The notes beneath the pieces are model-generated. The model was not told the DNA's origin and made no database searches. It saw only the letters and a program-made list of their open reading frames with translations. A program made the translations under genes and the position numbers. Shown here in pieces: positions 758 through 9,994 of a stretch of 10,371 bases of DNA. Positions within the stretch are counted from its first letter, which is position 1; each line of letters starts with the position of its first letter. Source of the stretch: Clostridiales bacterium (GTDB lineage Bacteria; Bacillota; Clostridia; Christensenellales; Aristaeellaceae); contig JAAZAQ010000386.1 in assembly GCA_012514225.1 (NCBI GenBank), forward strand, positions 1-10,371. The letters are read 5' to 3'.

Positions 758-786
758 AAAGCCCGGAACGCGGCGTTCCGGGCTTT
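754..786 (-). terminator. Rho-independent terminator following the tRNA 3' end
   Basis: A 13-bp perfect stem (AAAGCCCGGAACG at 758-770 against CGTTCCGGGCTTT at 774-786) with a 3-nt loop. Read on the minus strand it runs into CTTTTGTATT, a T-rich tail. It starts at the A of the CCA end of the tRNA fragment at 786-808, so it is most simply the original terminator of that tRNA gene, insulating hutH from it. On the plus strand the stem is followed by GGCAGG, so it is unlikely to terminate in that direction. Confidence 0.8.
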
Positions 787-808
787 GGCAGGGGCATAAG
801 GACTCGAA
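786..808 (-). other. tRNA 3'-end fragment, probable integration att site
   Basis: Read on the minus strand, the 23 nt from 808 to 786 begin with the T-loop TTCGAGT, continue with the 3' T-stem strand CCTTA, the acceptor strand TGCCCCT, discriminator G, and end in an encoded CCA. The TGCCCCTGCCA end matches what I recall of bacterial tRNA-Trp genes, but the isotype is not certain. The sequence just to the right (809 on) gives TAAAA where the 5' T-stem strand should pair with CCTTA, and no D-arm or anticodon arm follows, so this is a fragment and not a gene. A lone tRNA 3' end still attached to its terminator is the typical scar left at the distal end when a tyrosine-recombinase element integrates into a tRNA and rebuilds the intact copy at its other end. 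No integrase is visible in the window, so this part is inference. Confidence 0.7.
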
Positions 809-1339: not shown

Positions 1340-4300
1340 ATGAACTTCACCTACCTGACCACCTTCCCCGCCTTCTCCCAACTCCTCGGCTACTGCCGGG
1401 AGGCGGAGGACTTCGCGCTGTCCCGTCCCAACATCGGCGCAACCTCCGCCCGCAAGGCGATGGAGTACCTGGTGAAGTTCCTCTACGCCGCCAGGGTCGG
1501 GGAGCCTGAGCAGGGAAAAACGCTGTTTGAGATGGTCACGGACCCGCGCTTCACCGCTTTCGTGGGCGATCCCACCCTGCTCAACAGCATCCACTACATC
1601 CGCCGGATGGGCAACGTGGCGGTGCATGACGGCACCCTGACGGCAGACGACGCCTTGAAGGTGCTGGAGGAGCTGCACTTCCTGGTGGGAGAAACCTGCA
1701 TCCTGCTGGGGCTCATCCCCGACTACGATGATTTCGTGAAGCCGGGTGCCTCCGTCCCTGTGGTGCCGCCGACGCCTTCCACACAGAAAGTCACCGTCGC
1801 GCCGGAGCTGGCTGCGGCCTTCGCCCCGCGGATGCGCTTGGCGCGCTTTGACGTGCGGCACCCGCGGGACGAGGAGGAGAACAAGAAGCTCTTCCTCACC
1901 GCCTCCCTGCGTGAGTCCGGCTGGGCCCTCGTCAACCGGCCTGACCAGGCCTTGCCCGGCTGCGCCGGCATCCAGATGATGCTGGAGGGCGGGGACACGG
2001 TGGACTATGTGCTCTACGGCCGGGACAACAAGCCCCTGGCGGTGGTGGAGTACACCGCGACCCGGAAGAACCCGCTGGAGGGCCGGGCAAAGGGCATCGC
2101 GAAGGCGAACCAACTCGCCCAAAAATACGGGTGCCGCCCGGCGGTGTACTACACGGACGGCTACCACATCTTCTGCATCGACCCGCTGGGCTATCCCCCG
2201 CGCCGGGTGTTTTGCTTCCACTCCGTGGCGGAGCTGGAGCTGCTCCGGCTGCGGGCGACCTTGCGCGGGGACCTGAACGCCGTGAAGGTCGACGACGCGA
2301 TCACCAACCGGGACTACCAGAAAGCCGCGATCGCCGGCGTGTGCGCGGCCTACACAGGCCTGCGCCGCAGGAGCCTGCTGGTGATGGCGACCGGCAGCGG
2401 GAAAACCCGCGTGGCCATCTCCTGCGTGGACGTGCTGCTCAAGGCGAACTGGGTCAAGAACGTGCTCTTCCTGGCCGACCGCACCAGCCTGGTGCGCCAG
2501 GCGCATAAAAACTTCAGCAAGCTGCTGCCGGGCGTAACCACCTCCGTCTACACGGGAGGAGAGACGGGCCGGGACGGGAACGCACGCGTCATCTTCTCCA
2601 CTTACCAGACGATGATCAACCTGGTCAATGACGACACGCGGGAGTTTGGCATCGGACGCTTCGACCTGATCATCATCGACGAGGCGCACCGTTCCATCTT
2701 CCGCAAGTACAGGGCGCTGTTCCACTATTTTGACGCGCTGATGCTGGGGCTGACCGCCACCCCCAGGAGCGAGGAGAACAAGAGCACCTACGAGGCCTTC
2801 GCCCTGCCGGAGGGCAAGCCGGACTATGCCTACGAGCTGGAGCAGGCTATCCGGGATAAGTTTCTCGTGGGCTTTTCCGTGCTGGACCGCACCACGGAGC
2901 TGCTGCGCCGCGGCATCCGCTACGACCAGCTGAGCCCGGAGGAGAAGGAGCAGTTTGAGGAGACCTTCTCCCCGGACGACCTGGACACCCAGCCAGATTT
3001 TGACGGCACGGTGGTCGAGCCGGGGCGGATCGGGCGGCGCGTGATCAACCTGGGCACCATCGACGTGATGCTGAATGACCTGATGAAGAACGGCCTGAAA
3101 ATCAACGCCGGTGACAAACTGGGGAAGTCCATTATCTTTGCCGCCAGCCACATTGAGGCCGAAATGATCGCCGAGCGCTTCCGCAAGCTCTACCCCCACC
3201 TGGGGATGGACTTCTGCAAGCTGGTGGACAGCCGGGTGGAGAACAGTCAGAGCCTGATTGATACTTTCAGCGAGCGGGACAGCCTGCCCCAGGTCTGCGC
3301 CAGCGTGGACATGCTGGACACCGGCATCGACGTGCCGGACGTGCTGAACCTTGTGTTTTTCAAGGGCGTGCGTTCCAAGATCAAGTTCCTGCAGATGGTC
3401 GGCCGGGGCACCCGGCTGTCCAAAGACGTGTTCGGCCCGGGGCTGGACAAGCAGGGCTTCCTGATCTTTGACTACTACGACAACTTCCGCTTCTTCTCCA
3501 CTGGCGACACCTGGACTGCGGCGGGGGGCAGTAAGGGAAGCACGCTTCCTTCCTCCCAGTCGCTCACCCTCAACCGCCGGCGGCTGAGCATCCTGCGCAG
3601 GCTGCAGGAGCAGCACAAATTATGCGCTTTTGACACGGGCTACCGGGACGACCTGCGGGCGCATTTCCTCAGTGAGGCGCGGGGGCTGAACAACGACGAC
3701 ATTGAAGTGCAGTACAACATGGCCTGGGTGAGCAAGTACCGCACCGCGGAGAACTGGGACACGCTCACCGAAGCGCGCGCGGCGGAAATCCTCCGGCACG
3801 TGCTGCCGCTCATCCCCCCGGAGGGCGACCCGGCCAAGGTGAAGAGCTTCGACATGCTCATCCTGGTCATCGAGGACGTGTATCCGCGCCTGGAAGAAGA
3901 GGGCAAGGACGTCCGGAAAATTCGCAATGGCTTCCAGAATGTAAGCCAGGCGATTACCGAGCGGATGCGGGAGCTGCTGAAACTCAAGACCATCCCCGCC
4001 ATCGTGCAGAAGGAGAAACTCATCGTCTCCATGCTCAATGGCGACTATCTATTGGACGCGTTCTCCCTGGAAAAGGCGGAGGCGGTACGCAAGGAACTGC
4101 GCGAGCTGATGGCCTACATCCCCGACCGGGAGGAGTACTATATCCTGGACGTGGACGACCTGCTCATTGACGGCGATACTGTCCCCGGTTTGGAAAGGCC
4201 GAAGCCCTATGCAGAAAAAGCGGTCGAATACATCCGGGACAGCGGGAACCCCGCGCTGGCCAAGCTGCGCAACCTGGACGAGCTGACCGACACGGAGAAA

Positions 4301-4645
4301 GCCGAGCTGACGGACATGTTCATGGTAACACTGGGGACCCGCGCGGAGTTCCTCGCCTGGTCGGGCAATATGCCGCTGCTACCCTTCCTGCGCGTCCAGG
4401 TGGGCATCGCGGACGAAGCGATCCAGACCAAGTTCGGCACCCTCCTGGACGACCCAGCGCTGGAGCAGGCGCACCGGATCTACCTGCGGCAAATCATCGG
4501 CTACGCCCGGGAAAACGGGGACGTAACCTTCCTGACCCTCCAGCAAGTCAGCCCCTTTTCTGATGTGGACGTCGTCCAGCTCTTCGGGCCGAAGATTTCC
4601 TATATCAAGCAGCTGGTCAACGGGCTGCACAAGCCGGTCATATAA
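1340..4645 (+). CDS. Solitary HsdR-like type I restriction R-subunit homologue (DUF4145 - nuclease - SF2 helicase - EcoEI-type C-terminus)
   Basis: A 1101-residue DNA translocase of the type I restriction R-subunit family. Order of parts: DUF4145-like N-terminus (about 1-115, with SARKAMEYLVKFLY and a conserved HDG); an HsdR_N PD-(D/E)xK region (about 160-300); then an SF2 helicase with Walker A MATGSGKT (349-356), DEAH (447-450), LTATPR (471-476) and motif VI QMVGRGTRL (685-693); and an EcoEI_R_C-like C-terminus (about 950-1095). The helicase motifs all look intact. In the nuclease motif Asp222 and Glu237 are present, but the position that should hold the catalytic Lys (ExK) reads Glu-Tyr-Thr, so cleavage may be lost or use another lysine such as Lys243. 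The start is taken at ATG 1340 (GGAG 9 nt upstream); a TTG at 1325 would add five residues but lies before that ribosome site. No hsdM or hsdS is in the window. It is the first gene of a five-gene plus-strand run; the 217-residue gene starts 12 nt after its stop. The promoter must lie in the AT-rich leader before 1340, where I see only a weak TTGGTG/TAATGA pair. Confidence 0.88.
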   Translation: MNFTYLTTFPAFSQLLGYCREAEDFALSRPNIGATSARKAMEYLVKFLYAARVGEPEQGKTLFEMVTDPRFTAFVGDPTLLNSIHYIRRMGNVAVHDGTLTADDALKVLEELHFLVGETCILLGLIPDYDDFVKPGASVPVVPPTPSTQKVTVAPELAAAFAPRMRLARFDVRHPRDEEENKKLFLTASLRESGWALVNRPDQALPGCAGIQMMLEGGDTVDYVLYGRDNKPLAVVEYTATRKNPLEGRAKGIAKANQLAQKYGCRPAVYYTDGYHIFCIDPLGYPPRRVFCFHSVAELELLRLRATLRGDLNAVKVDDAITNRDYQKAAIAGVCAAYTGLRRRSLLVMATGSGKTRVAISCVDVLLKANWVKNVLFLADRTSLVRQAHKNFSKLLPGVTTSVYTGGETGRDGNARVIFSTYQTMINLVNDDTREFGIGRFDLIIIDEAHRSIFRKYRALFHYFDALMLGLTATPRSEENKSTYEAFALPEGKPDYAYELEQAIRDKFLVGFSVLDRTTELLRRGIRYDQLSPEEKEQFEETFSPDDLDTQPDFDGTVVEPGRIGRRVINLGTIDVMLNDLMKNGLKINAGDKLGKSIIFAASHIEAEMIAERFRKLYPHLGMDFCKLVDSRVENSQSLIDTFSERDSLPQVCASVDMLDTGIDVPDVLNLVFFKGVRSKIKFLQMVGRGTRLSKDVFGPGLDKQGFLIFDYYDNFRFFSTGDTWTAAGGSKGSTLPSSQSLTLNRRRLSILRRLQEQHKLCAFDTGYRDDLRAHFLSEARGLNNDDIEVQYNMAWVSKYRTAENWDTLTEARAAEILRHVLPLIPPEGDPAKVKSFDMLILVIEDVYPRLEEEGKDVRKIRNGFQNVSQAITERMRELLKLKTIPAIVQKEKLIVSMLNGDYLLDAFSLEKAEAVRKELRELMAYIPDREEYYILDVDDLLIDGDTVPGLERPKPYAEKAVEYIRDSGNPALAKLRNLDELTDTEKAELTDMFMVTLGTRAEFLAWSGNMPLLPFLRVQVGIADEAIQTKFGTLLDDPALEQAHRIYLRQIIGYARENGDVTFLTLQQVSPFSDVDVVQLFGPKISYIKQLVNGLHKPVI

Positions 4646-4657
4646 GGGGGCGGAACG

Positions 4658-5311
4658 ATGGAAGTGCTGGAGATTCTCAGGGCGAACGGGCCTGCCCTGC
4701 TGAAGGAGGACCTGGACTTTTTCGAGACGGAGCTGGGGACCGGCGAATACTCCGGCGCCTATATCGAGGAGTGCCTGGTGCTCATCTCCCAGATCCGCGG
4801 CTGGCAGAAAGCACTACAGGGAGAAAATGACCCACCGGAACAGCCTGGAGGCTTGCCCCCCGGCGCTTTCGTTGACCCGGCCCGCCTCACACCCCCGGGG
4901 ACACAGCCCGCCCTCCCCACCTGGACCCCGGAGGAGCAGGTGGCGCGCGACCTGGAGCGGCTGCGCAAACAGCCGGACTACAAGACGGCGTTCAAGGACT
5001 ACCTCACCGGGAGCTCGGTGATCAACGAAGCTTTCCTGGACGCGCATTTCACGCTATTCCAGCCCTGGGAGATGGGCGCCGTGGTATCGGTCATCCCCCT
5101 GGGGGAAGCCTTCCTGGAGAAGTACTTCACGGAGCTGGACCCTGAGAAGATCGCCCGGTACCAGGCTTTCTCCGAGGTGTTCTTCATGAAGCATTTCGCG
5201 AAGCTGGATCCGTCCCTGGTGCTGGAAAAGGGCAGGAACGAATGGCGCAAAAAGGAGAACCGCTCCACACAGCTGGACGTGTTCCTGCGCCTGAAAGGGG
5301 TCAGGATATGA
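4658..5311 (+). CDS. Uncharacterised 217-residue protein with C-terminal tandem repeats
   Basis: No enzyme motif is recognised. Residues 1-50 are predicted helical (MEVLEILRANG onward), followed by a Pro/Gly-rich linker (about 55-92) and a helical stretch (92-118). The C-terminal half shows three imperfect repeats of 23-26 residues: unit 1 from N123 (NEAFLDAHF), unit 2 from G149 (GEAFLEKYFTELDPEKIARYQ), unit 3 from S172 (SEVFFMKHFAKLDPSLVLEKG). The shared pattern is (S/G)E-x-F-(L/F)-x-K-(Y/H)-F-x-x-LDP-x-x-(I/L). This resembles, as far as I recall, the SEEFIEKYFDKLDW-type repeats found in phage and giant-virus proteins. The tail (195-217) is basic. The start ATG has a GGGGGCGG-type ribosome site and lies 12 nt after the HsdR-like gene. 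Its stop overlaps the next start (ATGA, 5308-5311), so it is translationally coupled to the AAA+ gene and is probably a specific partner of it, perhaps an adaptor or sensor. That role is inference. Confidence 0.85.
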   Translation: MEVLEILRANGPALLKEDLDFFETELGTGEYSGAYIEECLVLISQIRGWQKALQGENDPPEQPGGLPPGAFVDPARLTPPGTQPALPTWTPEEQVARDLERLRKQPDYKTAFKDYLTGSSVINEAFLDAHFTLFQPWEMGAVVSVIPLGEAFLEKYFTELDPEKIARYQAFSEVFFMKHFAKLDPSLVLEKGRNEWRKKENRSTQLDVFLRLKGVRI

Positions 5312-6639
5312 TTACCATCAATGAGGCGAAGCGGCTGGTGAAGCGTGCCCTGCTGGCCAACGTCGTGTCCGGGAAGCGCGACCTGGCCATCACGCCCATC
5401 GTCTCCGGCAAGCACGGCATCGGCAAATCGCAGATGATCAAGAGCATCGCCGCGGACATGGGCGGCGTGTGCATGACAGTAGAGGGCGGCACGCTGAAGG
5501 AAGGGGAGATTACAGGCCTCCCCTACCAGTACAAGGATGAGGCAGGGGCGCACAAATTCCGCTTCCTGTCCTACTACGCGGTGGAGCGCATCCAGCTGGA
5601 GGAACGCCGCGTGTTTGAAGCCGCAGGCCATGTGCTGGCCCGGTCCTCCGCGCTGGAGGGTGATGAGAACAAGTATGCCCTCAACGACCTGAGTGTACAG
5701 GATAAAATTGAAGCCCTGCTCTCCGGGCGTGTGAAGCCGGTGATCATTTTTATTGACGAGATCAACCGCACCGAGAACACCGTTTACAAGGAATTGATGA
5801 ACATCCTGCTCACACGCAGCGTGAATGGCTACCAGTTTCCCTGGTGGGCGTTGTTTGTGGGCGCGATGAACCCCAGCACCCAGAACAGCGTGTACGCCAC
5901 CAATGAGATGGACCCCGCGCAGTTGGACCGCTTTATCAAGATCAAGGCGGGCGACAACGCGGCCGAGTGGATTAAATACGGGAAGCAGGCGGGGATATCC
6001 TCCGACATCCTGGCCTTCATCAAGGACAACCCCAAGTGCCTCTCCCCGGATTCCAAAGACCTGACGGATGAAGAGAAGCCGACACCCTCCCCCCGCGGCT
6101 GGGACATGGTGGATACCCTGCTGCGCAGCGAGCCGCTGCTGCGGCCCTTTTTCACTGATAAGGAGAACGACCCCAGGGTGGTGGAAAAGGACATGCGTAA
6201 TTTGATCAGCGCGAAGCTGGGCCCCTCCGTGGCCACGATGTTCTTCGCCAGCCTGGTGTCCCAGGCCAGGGCGATCCCGCCGGAGGAGATTTTCGCTGAC
6301 GACGAAACGCTTAGCGGGCTCTCAGAAACCATTTGCCTGCTCTCCGCGGCCAAGAAGGCGCAGGCCTGCGACCTGATGCTGCAGCATTTAAAGGAGAACC
6401 TGGAGTTCATGATGCTGGACAGGACCGGGTTCGAAACCGTGAAGAAGCAACTGTCCGCGTTCGTCGGCCTCCTGGACGCCTCCACCCGGCTGCTGTTCGC
6501 GCAGAACATCGCGGCCACCCGTACGGACGACGGCAACAGCCTAATTGACCTCCTGTTCAGCGTGTTTGAGAAGGACCTCATCGGGATGCTGGACCTGTCC
6601 GACCGCACGCGCAAGCTGATCGAAAGCAGCGGGTCATGA
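5308..6639 (+). CDS. MoxR-like AAA+ ATPase
   Basis: A 443-residue AAA+ ATPase of the MoxR/dynein-related (AAA_5) type, which assembles as hexamers and typically works with a VWA-domain partner to remodel or activate a client. Visible motifs: Walker A GKHGIGKS (34-41, Lys40), the EGGTLKEGEITGLPY segment after it, Walker B IIFIDEIN (Asp150, Glu151), sensor-1 Asn188 in GAMNPST, and the arginine-finger region QLDRF (Arg208). The region after about 330 is helical and unrecognised. The start is set at ATG 5308, which overlaps the TGA of the preceding gene; an in-frame ATG at 5242 would add 22 residues lying inside that gene and before the GGGGTCAGG ribosome site, so it is rejected. The gene ends in another ATGA overlap (6636-6639) with the VWA gene. 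The gene order AAA+ then VWA is the normal arrangement of such pairs. Confidence 0.92.
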   Translation: MITINEAKRLVKRALLANVVSGKRDLAITPIVSGKHGIGKSQMIKSIAADMGGVCMTVEGGTLKEGEITGLPYQYKDEAGAHKFRFLSYYAVERIQLEERRVFEAAGHVLARSSALEGDENKYALNDLSVQDKIEALLSGRVKPVIIFIDEINRTENTVYKELMNILLTRSVNGYQFPWWALFVGAMNPSTQNSVYATNEMDPAQLDRFIKIKAGDNAAEWIKYGKQAGISSDILAFIKDNPKCLSPDSKDLTDEEKPTPSPRGWDMVDTLLRSEPLLRPFFTDKENDPRVVEKDMRNLISAKLGPSVATMFFASLVSQARAIPPEEIFADDETLSGLSETICLLSAAKKAQACDLMLQHLKENLEFMMLDRTGFETVKKQLSAFVGLLDASTRLLFAQNIAATRTDDGNSLIDLLFSVFEKDLIGMLDLSDRTRKLIESSGS

Positions 6640-8102
6640 AGGGTGACATCGTCGCCCTGCTCCAGGGGATCCAGGAGAAGATCCGGGCCGTCGAGGGCGG
6701 TGACACGGACGCTTCGGTGCTGGACGGGATCCGGGCGGACTACCTGGAGCTGACGGAACTGGTCAAGCTGTTCCTGATCTCCGAGCGGGACAGCTATTAT
6801 GGCTACTTCCTGATGAACATGGCGTTCCGGGTGGATTTCCGCTGCCGGTGCGTCGCGGGGATCCGGCTGGGCGAGTTCCCGCCCGTGCTGGAGTCCAACC
6901 CCCTGCTCCTGTGCAGGTTCACGCTCAAGGAGATCCTCTACGTCTTCTGCCATGAGATCGACCACGTGATGCTCAACCACCCGGCGGAGATGCTCCGGGC
7001 GAACCCGGCCGGAGACCCGGAGGTGTTCCAGCGGTTCAACCTCGCGGCCGACGCCTCCGTCAACGACCGCCTCAACCACGAGATCGTCCAGGTAAAACGA
7101 ACCTTTCTTTCCATGCCGGAGGGATGCATCACCTCGGCCGTCCTGAAGAAGATGTTTCGCCTCAGGCAGGTCCTGCCATTGGAAAGCTATGCATACTACT
7201 GGGCGCTCATCAAGGACAGCGGCGAGGCGCCCGGCACCAACGGACACACGGAGATGCTGCTCAGGCTGCCGGGGGCCCCGGGCGGCAAGGCGCGCGGCGG
7301 CAGCGGGAAACCCGGGGGGCAGGGTGAAGCGGCGCCCAAAGACGACGTCGGACCGGGTGGGCAGGGCAGCGTCGTCACCGCTAAAAACTGCGCAAAGGCG
7401 GAAGACCACCAGTGGGGGGCGGAGAGTGACCCGGAGAACGCGCAGGCAGCCGCCCGGGAGCTCGTCAACGCCGCGGTATCGATGATGAACGACGAGACCC
7501 GCGGCCTGATGCCCGCCGGCTTCATGAGCCAGGTCGGCAGGCTCAACGCGCCGCCGGCGATCTCCTGGCAATCCATCCTCAAAAAATACGTGGGCACCAT
7601 CTCCGCCCAAAAGCGCAGGACGCGCATGCGGCTCAACCGCCGCCAGCCGGAGCGCTTCGACCTGCTGGGCACGATGAGCGAAAAGATCCTCAAGATCATT
7701 GTCGCGATCGACACCTCCGGATCGATGGACGACGCGCAGATTGCCGCCGTGTTCACCGAGATCTTCGCGATCCTCGCCAAGCGGAAGTATGAAATCACCG
7801 TCATCGAATGCGACGCGAAGGTCCAGCGGGTCTACACGGTGACCAAGCCCGGGGAGATCGGGCAGTCGGTCAAGGGACGCGGCGGCACGGCCTTCACCCC
7901 GGTGATCGAGTATGTGAACAACGACCGCCGCTTCCGCGACGCCCTGCTGATCTACTTTACGGACGGCTACGGGGAGAGCGAGATCCCGCGGCCGAAGACC
8001 TACCGCAACCTTTGGGTCGTCCTGGACAACGCGGCGCACCTGTCCCTGCGCGAGCCCTACGGGACCAAGGTGGTCCTGAAGCGGGCGGGGAACGGGCAAT
8101 GA
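6636..8102 (+). CDS. DUF2201-type protein: HExxH metallopeptidase-like domain fused to VWA domain
   Basis: A 488-residue partner of the preceding AAA+ ATPase. The N-terminal half (about 45-210) matches the putative metallopeptidase domain of DUF2201 proteins: CHEIDHVMLNH contains a complete zinc-binding HExxH (His106, Glu107, His110), followed by the family segment NLAADASVND (Asp139, Asn143), which may give the third ligand. A flexible Gly/Pro-rich linker (about 210-248) follows. The C-terminal part (about 350-480) is a VWA domain with an intact MIDAS: DTSGS (Asp359, Ser361, Ser363), GGTAFTP (Thr418) and FTDGYGE (Asp443). VWA domains of this kind bind AAA+ rings through a metal-dependent contact. 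Translation is coupled to the AAA+ gene by ATGA at 6636. There is no signal peptide or membrane segment, so it should be cytosolic. Whether the peptidase site is active is not known for the family in general, but here both motifs are complete. Confidence 0.9.
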   Translation: MKGDIVALLQGIQEKIRAVEGGDTDASVLDGIRADYLELTELVKLFLISERDSYYGYFLMNMAFRVDFRCRCVAGIRLGEFPPVLESNPLLLCRFTLKEILYVFCHEIDHVMLNHPAEMLRANPAGDPEVFQRFNLAADASVNDRLNHEIVQVKRTFLSMPEGCITSAVLKKMFRLRQVLPLESYAYYWALIKDSGEAPGTNGHTEMLLRLPGAPGGKARGGSGKPGGQGEAAPKDDVGPGGQGSVVTAKNCAKAEDHQWGAESDPENAQAAARELVNAAVSMMNDETRGLMPAGFMSQVGRLNAPPAISWQSILKKYVGTISAQKRRTRMRLNRRQPERFDLLGTMSEKILKIIVAIDTSGSMDDAQIAAVFTEIFAILAKRKYEITVIECDAKVQRVYTVTKPGEIGQSVKGRGGTAFTPVIEYVNNDRRFRDALLIYFTDGYGESEIPRPKTYRNLWVVLDNAAHLSLREPYGTKVVLKRAGNGQ

Positions 8103-8126
8103 CGCGGGGGGAGTGAGGGAGACGCC

Positions 8127-9092
8127 GTGAACATCGGGAAAGACATCGGGCGCGACTTGACGGGAGGCCTGATCATCGACTGGTGCGCACAGTTGGCGCA
8201 GCAAGACGGGGAGTTCGTCTTCATGAATTCCTTTGCCTCCGGATACGGCAGGATCCGCTTTTCAACACGCACCCTGGAAGCGGCGTTCCCGCCCTCCGGG
8301 GGCACGGCGGGCTTCTGGAAGAACGGCCGGCACGCGTTTTATGAGATCCGGCACCAAACCGGGGTTTTCCAGGTTGCGTGCCTGGTCGGAATATCGGGGC
8401 TCGGGCTTCGAAAGCAAAAAGCGTGCCGGCAGCTGCTGGCGGCGGCGGGGGCGGAGGACACAAGAGACGACTGCGCCGTCGTCAAGGCTTGGGATCTGCT
8501 TCCCTTCCTCAGTTCGTCCTTCCAAGAGGCCGACGCGCTGAGCGACTTTGCCGGGTGTGAGCTGCAGTTCTTCCAAAGGGAGCTGCGCGCGTGGCTGGAC
8601 GATCCCGCCCGCCGCATCCGGAATTTCCCTGGCCTGGAACTCCATCCGGTGGGGAATCTGGAACTGCCGGAAACGGTGTACATGGAAGGCGCGCTGAAAA
8701 CCATCCTCACGGACCGCTTTGAGCGGAACCGTCAGGCGCGCAGGCAGTGCGTCGCCGTCCACGGGACCGCGTGCGCGGTCTGCGGTTTCGACTTCGGCCT
8801 CGTGTACGGCGAGGAATTTGCAGGGAAGATCGAGGTACACCATAGAAAGCCGCTGAGTGAGATCCGGGAGGAATACACTGTGAACCCTGGGGAAGACCTG
8901 ATCCCCGTTTGCCCGAACTGCCACCTCATCCTTCACAGCAAAGCAGAAGGCGTGTTCACTGTTGCGGAAGTGAAGAATTTCCTGAACCATCAGGATGTTG
9001 CGGCGGAAGCGGGCAAAGATGCCTCCGTAGTTCATCATCAAACCGACCTGCAAGACAGCCCCATCAGGCACGGGGGGGCCGGTAAATACTAG
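8127..9092 (+). CDS. HNH endonuclease with unrecognised N-terminal domain
   Basis: A 321-residue protein whose C-terminal third is a McrA-like HNH nuclease: CAVCGFDFG (Cys216, Cys219), EVHHRKPLS (His238, His239), NPGEDLIPVCPNCHLILH (Cys262, Cys265, His266, His270). The four cysteines suggest a structural zinc beside the beta-beta-alpha-metal catalytic site. Proteins with this HNH often cut modified or foreign DNA. The first 200 residues, with GRHAFYEIRHQTGVFQVACL near 70-90, match no domain I know and could be the DNA-recognition or modification-reading part. Start GTG 8127 has AGGGAG just upstream (8116-8121) and lies 24 nt after the VWA gene; the next in-frame ATG (8223) would cut into a conserved-looking stretch. 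It is same-strand and close, so probably co-transcribed, but without the stop-start overlaps of the previous genes; it could be an independently acquired cargo gene. Confidence 0.88.
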   Translation: MNIGKDIGRDLTGGLIIDWCAQLAQQDGEFVFMNSFASGYGRIRFSTRTLEAAFPPSGGTAGFWKNGRHAFYEIRHQTGVFQVACLVGISGLGLRKQKACRQLLAAAGAEDTRDDCAVVKAWDLLPFLSSSFQEADALSDFAGCELQFFQRELRAWLDDPARRIRNFPGLELHPVGNLELPETVYMEGALKTILTDRFERNRQARRQCVAVHGTACAVCGFDFGLVYGEEFAGKIEVHHRKPLSEIREEYTVNPGEDLIPVCPNCHLILHSKAEGVFTVAEVKNFLNHQDVAAEAGKDASVVHHQTDLQDSPIRHGGAGKY

Positions 9093-9158: not shown

Positions 9159-9437
9159 TTACTGCCCCCAACTATAAATCTCGCTGCTGGGGACGGTTGG
9201 TTCCCCCTCCTCTTCGCAAACGATCTCGACCACCTTGGCGGACCTGGGGAGGGAATCAAGATACGCTTCCAGTTCCGCCGGGGTTTCGATCAGGAGGGGC
9301 TCTGTGTAATTGCCCCGGCTTCCCGGGTCGCTCGCCTGGACATAGTAAGGAGGCAAGCCCCTGTAAACCACGACGTACATCCCCTGACCGAAGCTCTCTT
9401 CGACGGCTTCCAGCCGTTTAGTCAACGCTGATCTCAT
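9159..9437 (-). CDS. Small acidic hypothetical protein, phage-like context
   Basis: A 92-residue acidic protein: KRLEAVEESFGQGMYVVVYRG at the start, then a Pro/Ser segment, a short helix around ETPAELEAYLDSLP, and a strand KVVEIVCEEEGEP. It shows a plausible alternating strand/helix pattern but no family I recognise. The start ATG (9437) overlaps the TGA of the upstream helix-turn-helix gene by 4 nt, so the two are translationally coupled, and GGGCGGG serves as the ribosome site. Similar small proteins often sit between the small and large terminase genes of Firmicute prophages, but no large terminase follows. It converges on the HNH gene with only 66 nt between, and I see no clear hairpin terminator in that gap. 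Confidence 0.65.
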   Translation of the reverse strand: MRSALTKRLEAVEESFGQGMYVVVYRGLPPYYVQASDPGSRGNYTEPLLIETPAELEAYLDSLPRSAKVVEIVCEEEGEPTVPSSEIYSWGQ

Positions 9438-9994
9438 ACCCGCCCTTTCTTTTCCGCGACAGCCTTCTCGACCTCGCCCAGCCGGGCTTCCAGTTCCACC
9501 AATTCGATGCCTTTCAGCATGGAGTCCATCACCTTCATCTCCAGCATGGTCCGCGCCGGCTCCACGTCCCCGCCCTGGATCCGGACGAGCAGCTTGCCCA
9601 TTTCCCTAAGGATGCCGGCCGCCGTGGTCATCTGGCCCGTCCGTTCCGGCTTGTGGAGGGGGATATACTCGTCCTTCAAGGCAGCGGCGTACTTCAGCCG
9701 CATGTCCAGCAGTTTCTCCGGCGGGACCGCGCTCAGGTCCGTCCCCTCCAGCGCGTCATCGATCCGGGCAAGGATCCCGCCCAGCTGCCGGATCCGCGCC
9801 TCCCGGGTCATATGGAAAGCGTCATAGAGTTCCTGGAGCTGGTCAGCCTTGTAATGGGCGATTTCCCCTTCCAACTCGTGCGAGAAGCGGCTGGCGGTAC
9901 TTTCGGAAACGTGCAGCTCCCTGGCGATCTGCGCGTTGCTTTTGCCCTCCGCTTTCATGCGGATGAACTGGAACCGCTTGGATGCACTCACCAC
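9434..9994 (-). CDS. Helix-turn-helix protein, possibly phage small-terminase-like
   Basis: A 186-residue protein. Residues about 9-40 form a resolvase/sigma-type helix-turn-helix (FIRMKAEGKSNAQIARELHV followed by SESTASRF), a form also used by phage small terminase subunits to bind packaging DNA. The remainder is helical: a central region (about 45-130) with ARIRQLGGILARIDDALEGT, then a C-terminal amphipathic, coiled-coil-prone helix (about 145-183), compatible with an oligomer. GTG 9994 (or the adjacent GTG 9991) is the start; it overlaps the stop of the 26-codon reading frame upstream, which would explain the weak ribosome site of its own. Its stop overlaps the next start. A transcriptional regulator is the alternative; the phage assignment rests on architecture and small-gene packing only. 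Confidence 0.75.
   Translation of the reverse strand: MVSASKRFQFIRMKAEGKSNAQIARELHVSESTASRFSHELEGEIAHYKADQLQELYDAFHMTREARIRQLGGILARIDDALEGTDLSAVPPEKLLDMRLKYAAALKDEYIPLHKPERTGQMTTAAGILREMGKLLVRIQGGDVEPARTMLEMKVMDSMLKGIELVELEARLGEVEKAVAEKKGRV

Follow-up and report, generated by a model that had tools for sequence, protein, structure and literature searches.

Contig C361 of a Clostridiales bacterium, 10371 bases long and analysed here over its whole length (the window), carries a five-gene cluster headed by an HsdR-like translocase that keeps its motor motifs and has lost those of the nuclease. The source genome (1.93 Mb in 401 contigs, 89% complete) was taken as a metagenome-assembled genome (MAG). 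The cluster is real and intact, and its five open reading frames (ORFs) all lie on the plus strand, with intergenic gaps of 12 and 24 nucleotides (nt) and ATGA overlaps at 5308-5311 and 6636-6639, an arrangement already described in a first-pass annotation and reproduced by the ORF coordinates. The start of the AAA+ gene at 5308 was placed through alignment with relatives. Such close packing is not universal, since P2 and AAA are spaced by 477 nt in the related locus L008. The genes, and the motifs of HsdR on which the argument turns, are the following:

1340..4645, plus strand, HsdR-like translocase of 1101 residues, with DUF4145, an HSDR_N-like PD-(D/E)XK domain, a superfamily 2 (SF2) motor and a C-terminal region
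2048-2056, plus strand, residues 237-239 of HsdR, reading EYT (ExT replacing ExK)
2387-2407 and 2678-2689, plus strand, ATGSGKT and DEAH of HsdR, SF2 motor motifs
4658..5311, plus strand, P2, 217 residues, predicted to be mostly helical, with three repeats of about 25 residues and no Pfam family
5308..6639, plus strand, MoxR-like AAA+ ATPase, with Walker A GKHGIGKS and Walker B FIDEINR, beginning within the P2 stop
6636..8102, plus strand, putative metallopeptidase-VWA protein, with DUF2201_N (HEIDHxxxxH, nt 6951-6980) and VWA-like DUF2201 (DTSGS, nt 7710-7724)
8127..9092, plus strand, HNH endonuclease with a GTG start and a C-terminal HNH domain at nt ~8838-8936, an optional part of the module

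Type I restriction enzymes are motors that translocate DNA and then cut it. Pfam recognises DUF4145, a ResIII/SNF2-type helicase and Helicase_C in the HsdR of the window, and its best PADLOC match is a type I R model (REase_I, E 8.7e-125), type IV and other helicase models being matched as well. The best NCBIfam matches are also type I R families, under their cut-offs, and the N-terminus matches the PADLOC entry PDC-M16A (E 8.8e-11). EcoEI_R_C, the C-terminal domain of type I R subunits, was found in all four module-type HsdRs scanned and is precomputed in 116/120 of the database relatives.

The change in the nuclease domain is not confined to the window. Its best solved relative, 3h1t, has EAK at the position of EYT. 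In the eight full-length module HsdRs that were aligned the position reads ExT, DxA or DxT, and in the 120 best database relatives the lysine column holds T (111), I (4), S (4) or R (1); altogether, the catalytic lysine is lost in 128/128 HsdRs, made up of the 8 from module loci plus the 120 top database matches. Both the Q and the Y of QxxxY are replaced in the same 128 proteins, the first aspartate of PD-(D/E)XK is retained in every one, and the glutamate is retained in 126, with D in the other two. Helicase motifs Walker A, DEAH and VI are retained throughout (8/8 loci and 120/120 database proteins). Clustering of these 128 rows gives 37 groups at an identity of 90% and 19 at 80%.

As controls, 11 near full-length HsdR relatives of 33-39% identity were taken from a search of 196 same-class genomes. 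They were picked from 15 matches, the excluded ones being the source genome itself, G158 (a module locus, partial) and the partial proteins of G213 and G236. ExK and QxxxY are both intact in 11/11 controls, and DEAH was found in 8/11 using the same patterns. The control stretches (13.6-18 kb; ORFs of at least 60 residues) contain hsdM in 10/11 and hsdS in 11/11 cases, and at E 1e-3 none of them matched P2, AAA, VWA or HNH. By eye, an HNH-like ORF is seen in control L047 and a VWA-like ORF in control L048, neither of which matches the module proteins.

In a tree of 30 HsdRs, in which control L054 is a long branch flagged by the tree tool, all 19 module-type rows lie on one side of a 100/100 branch with a long stem. 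On these sequences the module HsdRs are a single clade (100/100), whose nuclease is dead by motif and has presumably lost its activity, even if a solved structure might reveal a rebuilt active site. The loss of the nuclease motifs coincides with the presence of P2, a MoxR AAA+ ATPase, an HExxH-VWA protein and, in 7/9 readable loci, an HNH nuclease. This predicted loss was overlooked in the first-pass annotation, and makes the accessory genes more interesting.

The motifs of the AAA+, VWA-peptidase and HNH proteins are conserved, in support of the first-pass annotation. P2 carries three units of about 25 residues in its C-terminal half, of the form F-[LF]-x-x-[HY]-F. It has no Pfam domain and no PADLOC match, PHROG offers a single match, over 52 residues, to a phage family without assigned function, and its predicted structure, with a mean predicted local distance difference test (pLDDT) score of 78.6, gave no PDB fold match at E 0.001. 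A 192-residue LSEAFI-type repeat protein in genome G037 (L081, 1486-2064) resembles P2 in the repeat half alone (E 9e-15). The AAA protein scores barely over the Pfam cut-offs of AAA_5 and AAA and under that of AAA_3; Walker A and B are present in 11/11 AAA proteins. It has no match among PDB sequences at E 0.1 and a single, chance-like one in PADLOC (E 0.0091). Both the AAA and the VWA protein of the window strongly match PHROG families, 1297 and 1314. HExxHxxxxH and DTS[GA]S (DxSxS) occur in 10/10 VWA proteins, HExxH being the sole predicted effector catalytic motif that is present in all ten, HNH-less loci included. DUF2201_N is a putative peptidase only, and searches with the VWA protein gave one chance-like match among PDB sequences (E 0.78) and none in PADLOC.

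In the HNH protein, the core cysteines and histidines are invariant in 26 aligned members. Its predicted structure (mean pLDDT 76.4) gave no PDB fold match at E 0.001, its N-terminal part is a separate domain with no recognised fold, and there is a weak McrA match among PDB sequences (E 0.56). Residues 20-106 (nt 8184-8444) weakly match the PADLOC candidate PDC-S26 (E 5.8e-5), and a PADLOC type IV model is matched weakly too (E 0.0098). The HNH domain is a reused part, because it is found with different N-terminal parts in 6/391 other genomes of the class.

Recurrence was assessed with a scan seeded by the P2 alignment, in which 84,980 species were each represented by one genome. At least 11 other loci were found, a lower bound because the scan relies on short exact patterns and may omit near copies of the source genome. 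Eight are from Clostridia (by title or taxonomy), two from Coriobacteria (Senegalimassilia and an Eggerthellaceae MAG) and one from a Gastranaerophilales-labelled MAG, where transfer or mis-binning might explain the locus. Two of the 11 loci come from isolates, Emergencia sp. 1XD21-10 (L011/L066) and Senegalimassilia anaerobia JC110 (L016/L069). The order P2-AAA holds in 11/11 loci and HsdR-P2-AAA in 10/11, the contig of L014 beginning inside P2; AAA-VWA is seen in 9/11, the misses (L008 and L009) being ends of the stretches. The expectation that the gene order would recur in unrelated genomes is thereby borne out, and the expectation that the HNH gene travels with the module holds for 7 of the 9 loci readable beyond VWA, window counted, and fails for L014 and L015. 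In both Coriobacterial loci, the HNH part is retained and the N-terminal part is gone.

The module is rare in whole-genome samples. AAA matches at E <= 1e-100 were obtained in 3/391 genomes of the class, the gene order being complete in the source genome and in G158, and DUF4116 being the neighbour in G091; P2 matches were likewise obtained in 3/391, one of them through the repeats alone. A phylum sample of 398 genomes yielded, at E 1e-40, no genome except the source. L018, L025 and L037 all represent G158; its contig and that of L007 are identical, and it was counted once. Carriage as mobile-element cargo was considered and rejected: a pattern-based scan of viral contigs found no P2 relative, and plasmid AAA matches are distant only (top row 73% coverage, 23% identity). 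A single 'phage' record comes close, and it is a 5.6 kb faecal contig without annotation.

The partners of a type I R subunit are encoded near the module in several relatives. On the module contig and within ~8 kb, hsdM is found in 5/11 loci (L009, L011 via L066, L015, L016 and L017) and hsdS in 6/11, namely the same five and L010; the hsdS of L017 (E 1.6e-9) runs off the contig. The visible parts of L007, L008, L012, L013 and L014, whose contigs are cut on at least one side, show neither hsdM nor hsdS. Both isolate genomes have hsdM, hsdS and the entire module on one contig. The genome of L010 has a separate contig (L068) with hsdM-hsdS, an HNH gene and the end of a VWA gene. Genome-wide, N6_Mtase was detected in 9/12 genomes, in one of them below cut-off only, and NPPF is present in 7/7 of the HsdMs examined from module genomes, five of which lie on the module contig. 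The proposal that the cluster works without HsdM and HsdS is not supported: both genes adjoin it in L009, L011/L066, L015, L016 and L017, an outcome that the first-pass annotation itself had named as refuting.

Some further features of these neighbourhoods may be mentioned. In L068 (3313-4466), the HNH gene and the VWA end converge on hsdM-hsdS, so that gene order has been rearranged around the module. In L016 of Senegalimassilia, a 642-residue protein without Pfam match at E 0.01 lies between HNH and hsdM (13867-15795). A tyrosine recombinase of the Phage_integrase family is found near hsdS in L009 (4528-5496), L010 (2793-3809), L011 (3323-4291) and L016 (20006-20660), called by Pfam in L009 and by match to the L009 protein in the other loci, and one is present near hsdS in control L054 too (13222-14211). 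This arrangement resembles type I systems with switching specificity. Inverted repeats of at least 40 nt between hsdS copies, a sign of a shufflon, were not found in L066 and L009, and the single inverted-repeat pair of L066 is situated beyond hsdM.

Around the cluster, the left end of the window falls inside a minus-strand histidine ammonia-lyase gene, and no window ORF was recognised as hsdM or hsdS, the contig stopping 1.3 kb past the HNH gene. Two further features were annotated:

786..808, minus strand, tRNA-Trp 3'-end remnant, 22/23 bases identical to the tRNA-Trp of the same-genus genome G006
9434-9994, minus strand, ORF of 186 residues with a Pfam HTH_23 match

The remnant at 786-808 is likely, by this identity, to be an island edge and an att-like scar, which agrees with the tRNA scar reported in the first-pass annotation. 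ARAGORN predicted zero tRNAs in the window, and no intact copy of the tRNA end was found in the source genome outside it with up to 2 mismatches allowed. An abiH-like remnant reported from the same region could not be confirmed, the frame of 55 residues having no Pfam match at E 0.01. Downstream of the HTH_23 ORF, the last ~55 bases of the contig (10316-10371) resemble, when read by eye, the beginning of a transposase; no phage DNA matched the right end of the window.

Because relatives encode hsdM and hsdS nearby, the module is best read as the R half of a type I R-M derivative, in which a motor without its own nuclease would hand its output to the accessory genes; we give this reading a probability of roughly 0.55. 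HsdM and HsdS would provide methylation and site recognition; at unmodified sites HsdR would be brought in to translocate DNA, which it could not cut. The motor, with P2 as an adaptor, may then load or trigger the MoxR-type AAA+ ring, which together with its VWA partner would switch on the fused metallopeptidase; in most loci the HNH nuclease could be licensed as well, as an optional DNase. That translocation drives the AAA+/VWA-peptidase is inferred because the module-bearing clade has retained its motor motifs and lost those for cutting. The more specific proposition, in which HsdRMS is a sensor of unmodified DNA and translocation drives the MoxR/VWA ring into proteolysis with an optional HNH DNase, should be held as doubtful. 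From these data we infer the inactivity of HsdR, the formation of a complex, the trigger, the substrate and a role in defence against phage or foreign DNA.

Several observations weigh against the R-half reading. As many as 88/128 HsdR rows belong to one 90%-identity group, and the 120 database HsdRs were counted without demonstrated P2, AAA or VWA neighbours. The window HsdR gave no EcoEI_R_C score at E 1, and neither did P0241 and P0242, the two proteins closest to it. Intervening genes separate hsdM from hsdR or HNH in L011 and L016. The source MAG, at 89% completeness, has no match to an HsdM-type methylase or to Methylase_S, and N6_Mtase was not found in it or in G447 (L007) and G454 (L014); all three are MAGs, the source by its 401 contigs and the others by record title. 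Moreover, L014 and L015 have no HNH gene beside the module, and this AAA-VWA pair is known as well from phages and from chromosomes without adjoining R-M genes.

How the output is divided between nuclease and peptidase leads to two tentative alternatives. The system may carry out ordinary restriction with swapped scissors, the HNH nuclease cutting for the dead HsdR domain while the AAA+/VWA pair assembles or gates the complex. This possibility draws on the position of HNH after VWA in most readable loci, on its invariant catalytic residues in 26 members and on the Coriobacterial loci, which keep the HNH part alone; it has to contend with the HNH-less L014 and L015, although L015 has an EYT HsdR together with hsdM and hsdS, and with the reuse of the HNH domain, which 6 further genomes of 391 carry next to different N-terminal parts. 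Alternatively, and just as provisionally, recognition of unmodified DNA may lead to proteolysis by DUF2201_N, as an abortive or targeted-protein response to which HNH is an extra. HExxH is present in 10/10 VWA proteins, also where HNH is missing, counter-invader systems with a MoxR ATPase, a vWA and a peptidase are known from the accessible part of one report (PMC12839542), and a fusion of metallopeptidase and VWA next to MoxR is known in jumbo phages (PMC7824862, accessible part). DUF2201_N is nevertheless a putative peptidase with no known substrate, and the accessible part of the jumbo-phage report proposes virion assembly and not defence.

Other readings appear less probable. The MoxR/VWA pair may remodel or restrain HsdRMS, for instance during assembly, with no effector role; NorQ/NorD, which act in metal insertion, offer a precedent (PMC9976466, accessible part), yet this unlikely explanation leaves the loss of the nuclease motifs in the same clade unaccounted for. 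A stand-alone conflict system needing no HsdM or HsdS, as first proposed for the window, is quite improbable. It would suit the absence of HsdM and HsdS from the window and the source MAG and the lack of an N6_Mtase match in two other module genomes, but those three genomes are MAGs, and hsdM and hsdS lie near the module in both isolates (L011/L066 and L016) and in L009, L015 and L017. The prospect that the locus is a decaying, non-working relic, an R-M locus stripped of M, S and nuclease, is slighter still: the orphan site, next to a tRNA scar and to what may be a mobile element, with no M or S found, would be expected of a relic, but the five ORFs are full length against their relatives and the motor, AAA, VWA, HExxH and HNH motifs are kept.

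If the R-half reading with its peptidase branch is true, the module would represent a system derived from type I whose output is proteolysis. A clade in which the motor is kept and the cutting site is lost by motif, with an AAA+/VWA-peptidase in its place, offers a testable case of effector exchange in restriction, and the cluster suggests an undescribed bacterial way of acting on foreign DNA. Bench tests are possible with the two isolates, in which a single contig holds hsdM, hsdS and the module.

The accessory genes may have a history of their own. Proteins with DUF4116 repeats were found beside a similar AAA gene in three other loci:

L027, 6803-7579, DUF4116-repeat protein (Pfam)
L028, 8700-9392, DUF4116-repeat protein (by eye)
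L026, 1346-2425, DUF4116-repeat protein (Pfam)

In L027 and L028, chromosomes of the same class, this protein directly precedes AAA-VWA and the AAA is 34% identical to that of the window; in L026 an AAA of 44% identity follows the DUF4116 protein and the VWA side is cut. As in the window, a repeat protein precedes AAA and VWA, whereas the AAA is only 34-44% identical. No HsdR, HsdM or HsdS match was obtained in the stretches that were read, using a greedy ORF set. By eye, the L027 and L028 triads, which may be free-standing, adjoin genes resembling cation antiporter subunits. A repeat protein, a MoxR AAA and a metallopeptidase-VWA may thus represent an older triad, later inserted into a type I R-M operon.

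BREX, DISARM and McrBC/CoCoNuT are multi-gene systems that share the theme of an ATPase combined with DNA modification. Their PADLOC models are unmatched by P2, AAA and VWA, and HNH gives a weak type IV match only. In agreement with the first-pass annotation, which recognised no named defence system with this gene set, the PADLOC library of 2023 holds no system composed of it, the HsdR alone matching generic type I R models; nor did the literature, with thin coverage of subscription papers and bioRxiv preprints, yield a description of a type I system with such a module. CoCoNuT superoperons hold type I R-M and a TerY-type VWA, according to the accessible part of their description (PMC11090510). 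MoxR-vWA counter-invader systems have been described (PMC7159879, accessible part), as have MoxR-vWA-peptidase-iSTAND systems (PMC12839542, accessible part), and they share with the window a MoxR AAA+ and a VWA fused to a peptidase domain. The third part of the latter is an iSTAND sensor, in contrast to the repeat protein and type I R-M motor of the window, and the effectors in the former include an EcoEI-like helicase (printed EcoERI) fused to DUF3427, unlike the window. The MoxR and N-terminal metallopeptidase-vWA pair of jumbo phages, with a proposed role in virion assembly, has the same architecture as the AAA and VWA of the window, but in a phage setting and with no mention of R-M in the accessible part of the report (PMC7824862). 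NorQ/NorD, a characterised MoxR-VWA pair, are a chaperone for metal insertion (PMC9976466, accessible part). In type I enzymes, the R2M2S complex, once on an unmodified site, both translocates and cleaves DNA (PMC12707154, accessible part). With the EcoAI/EcoEI-like members of this type the module shares the HsdR motor with DUF4145, and, in its relatives, EcoEI_R_C and nearby hsdM and hsdS; it differs in an HsdR without the PD-(D/E)XK lysine and QxxxY, and in the additional P2, AAA+, VWA-peptidase and, often, HNH. Each half was already known on its own, and the new point is a clade of HsdRs, nuclease-dead by motif, that is tied to the module.

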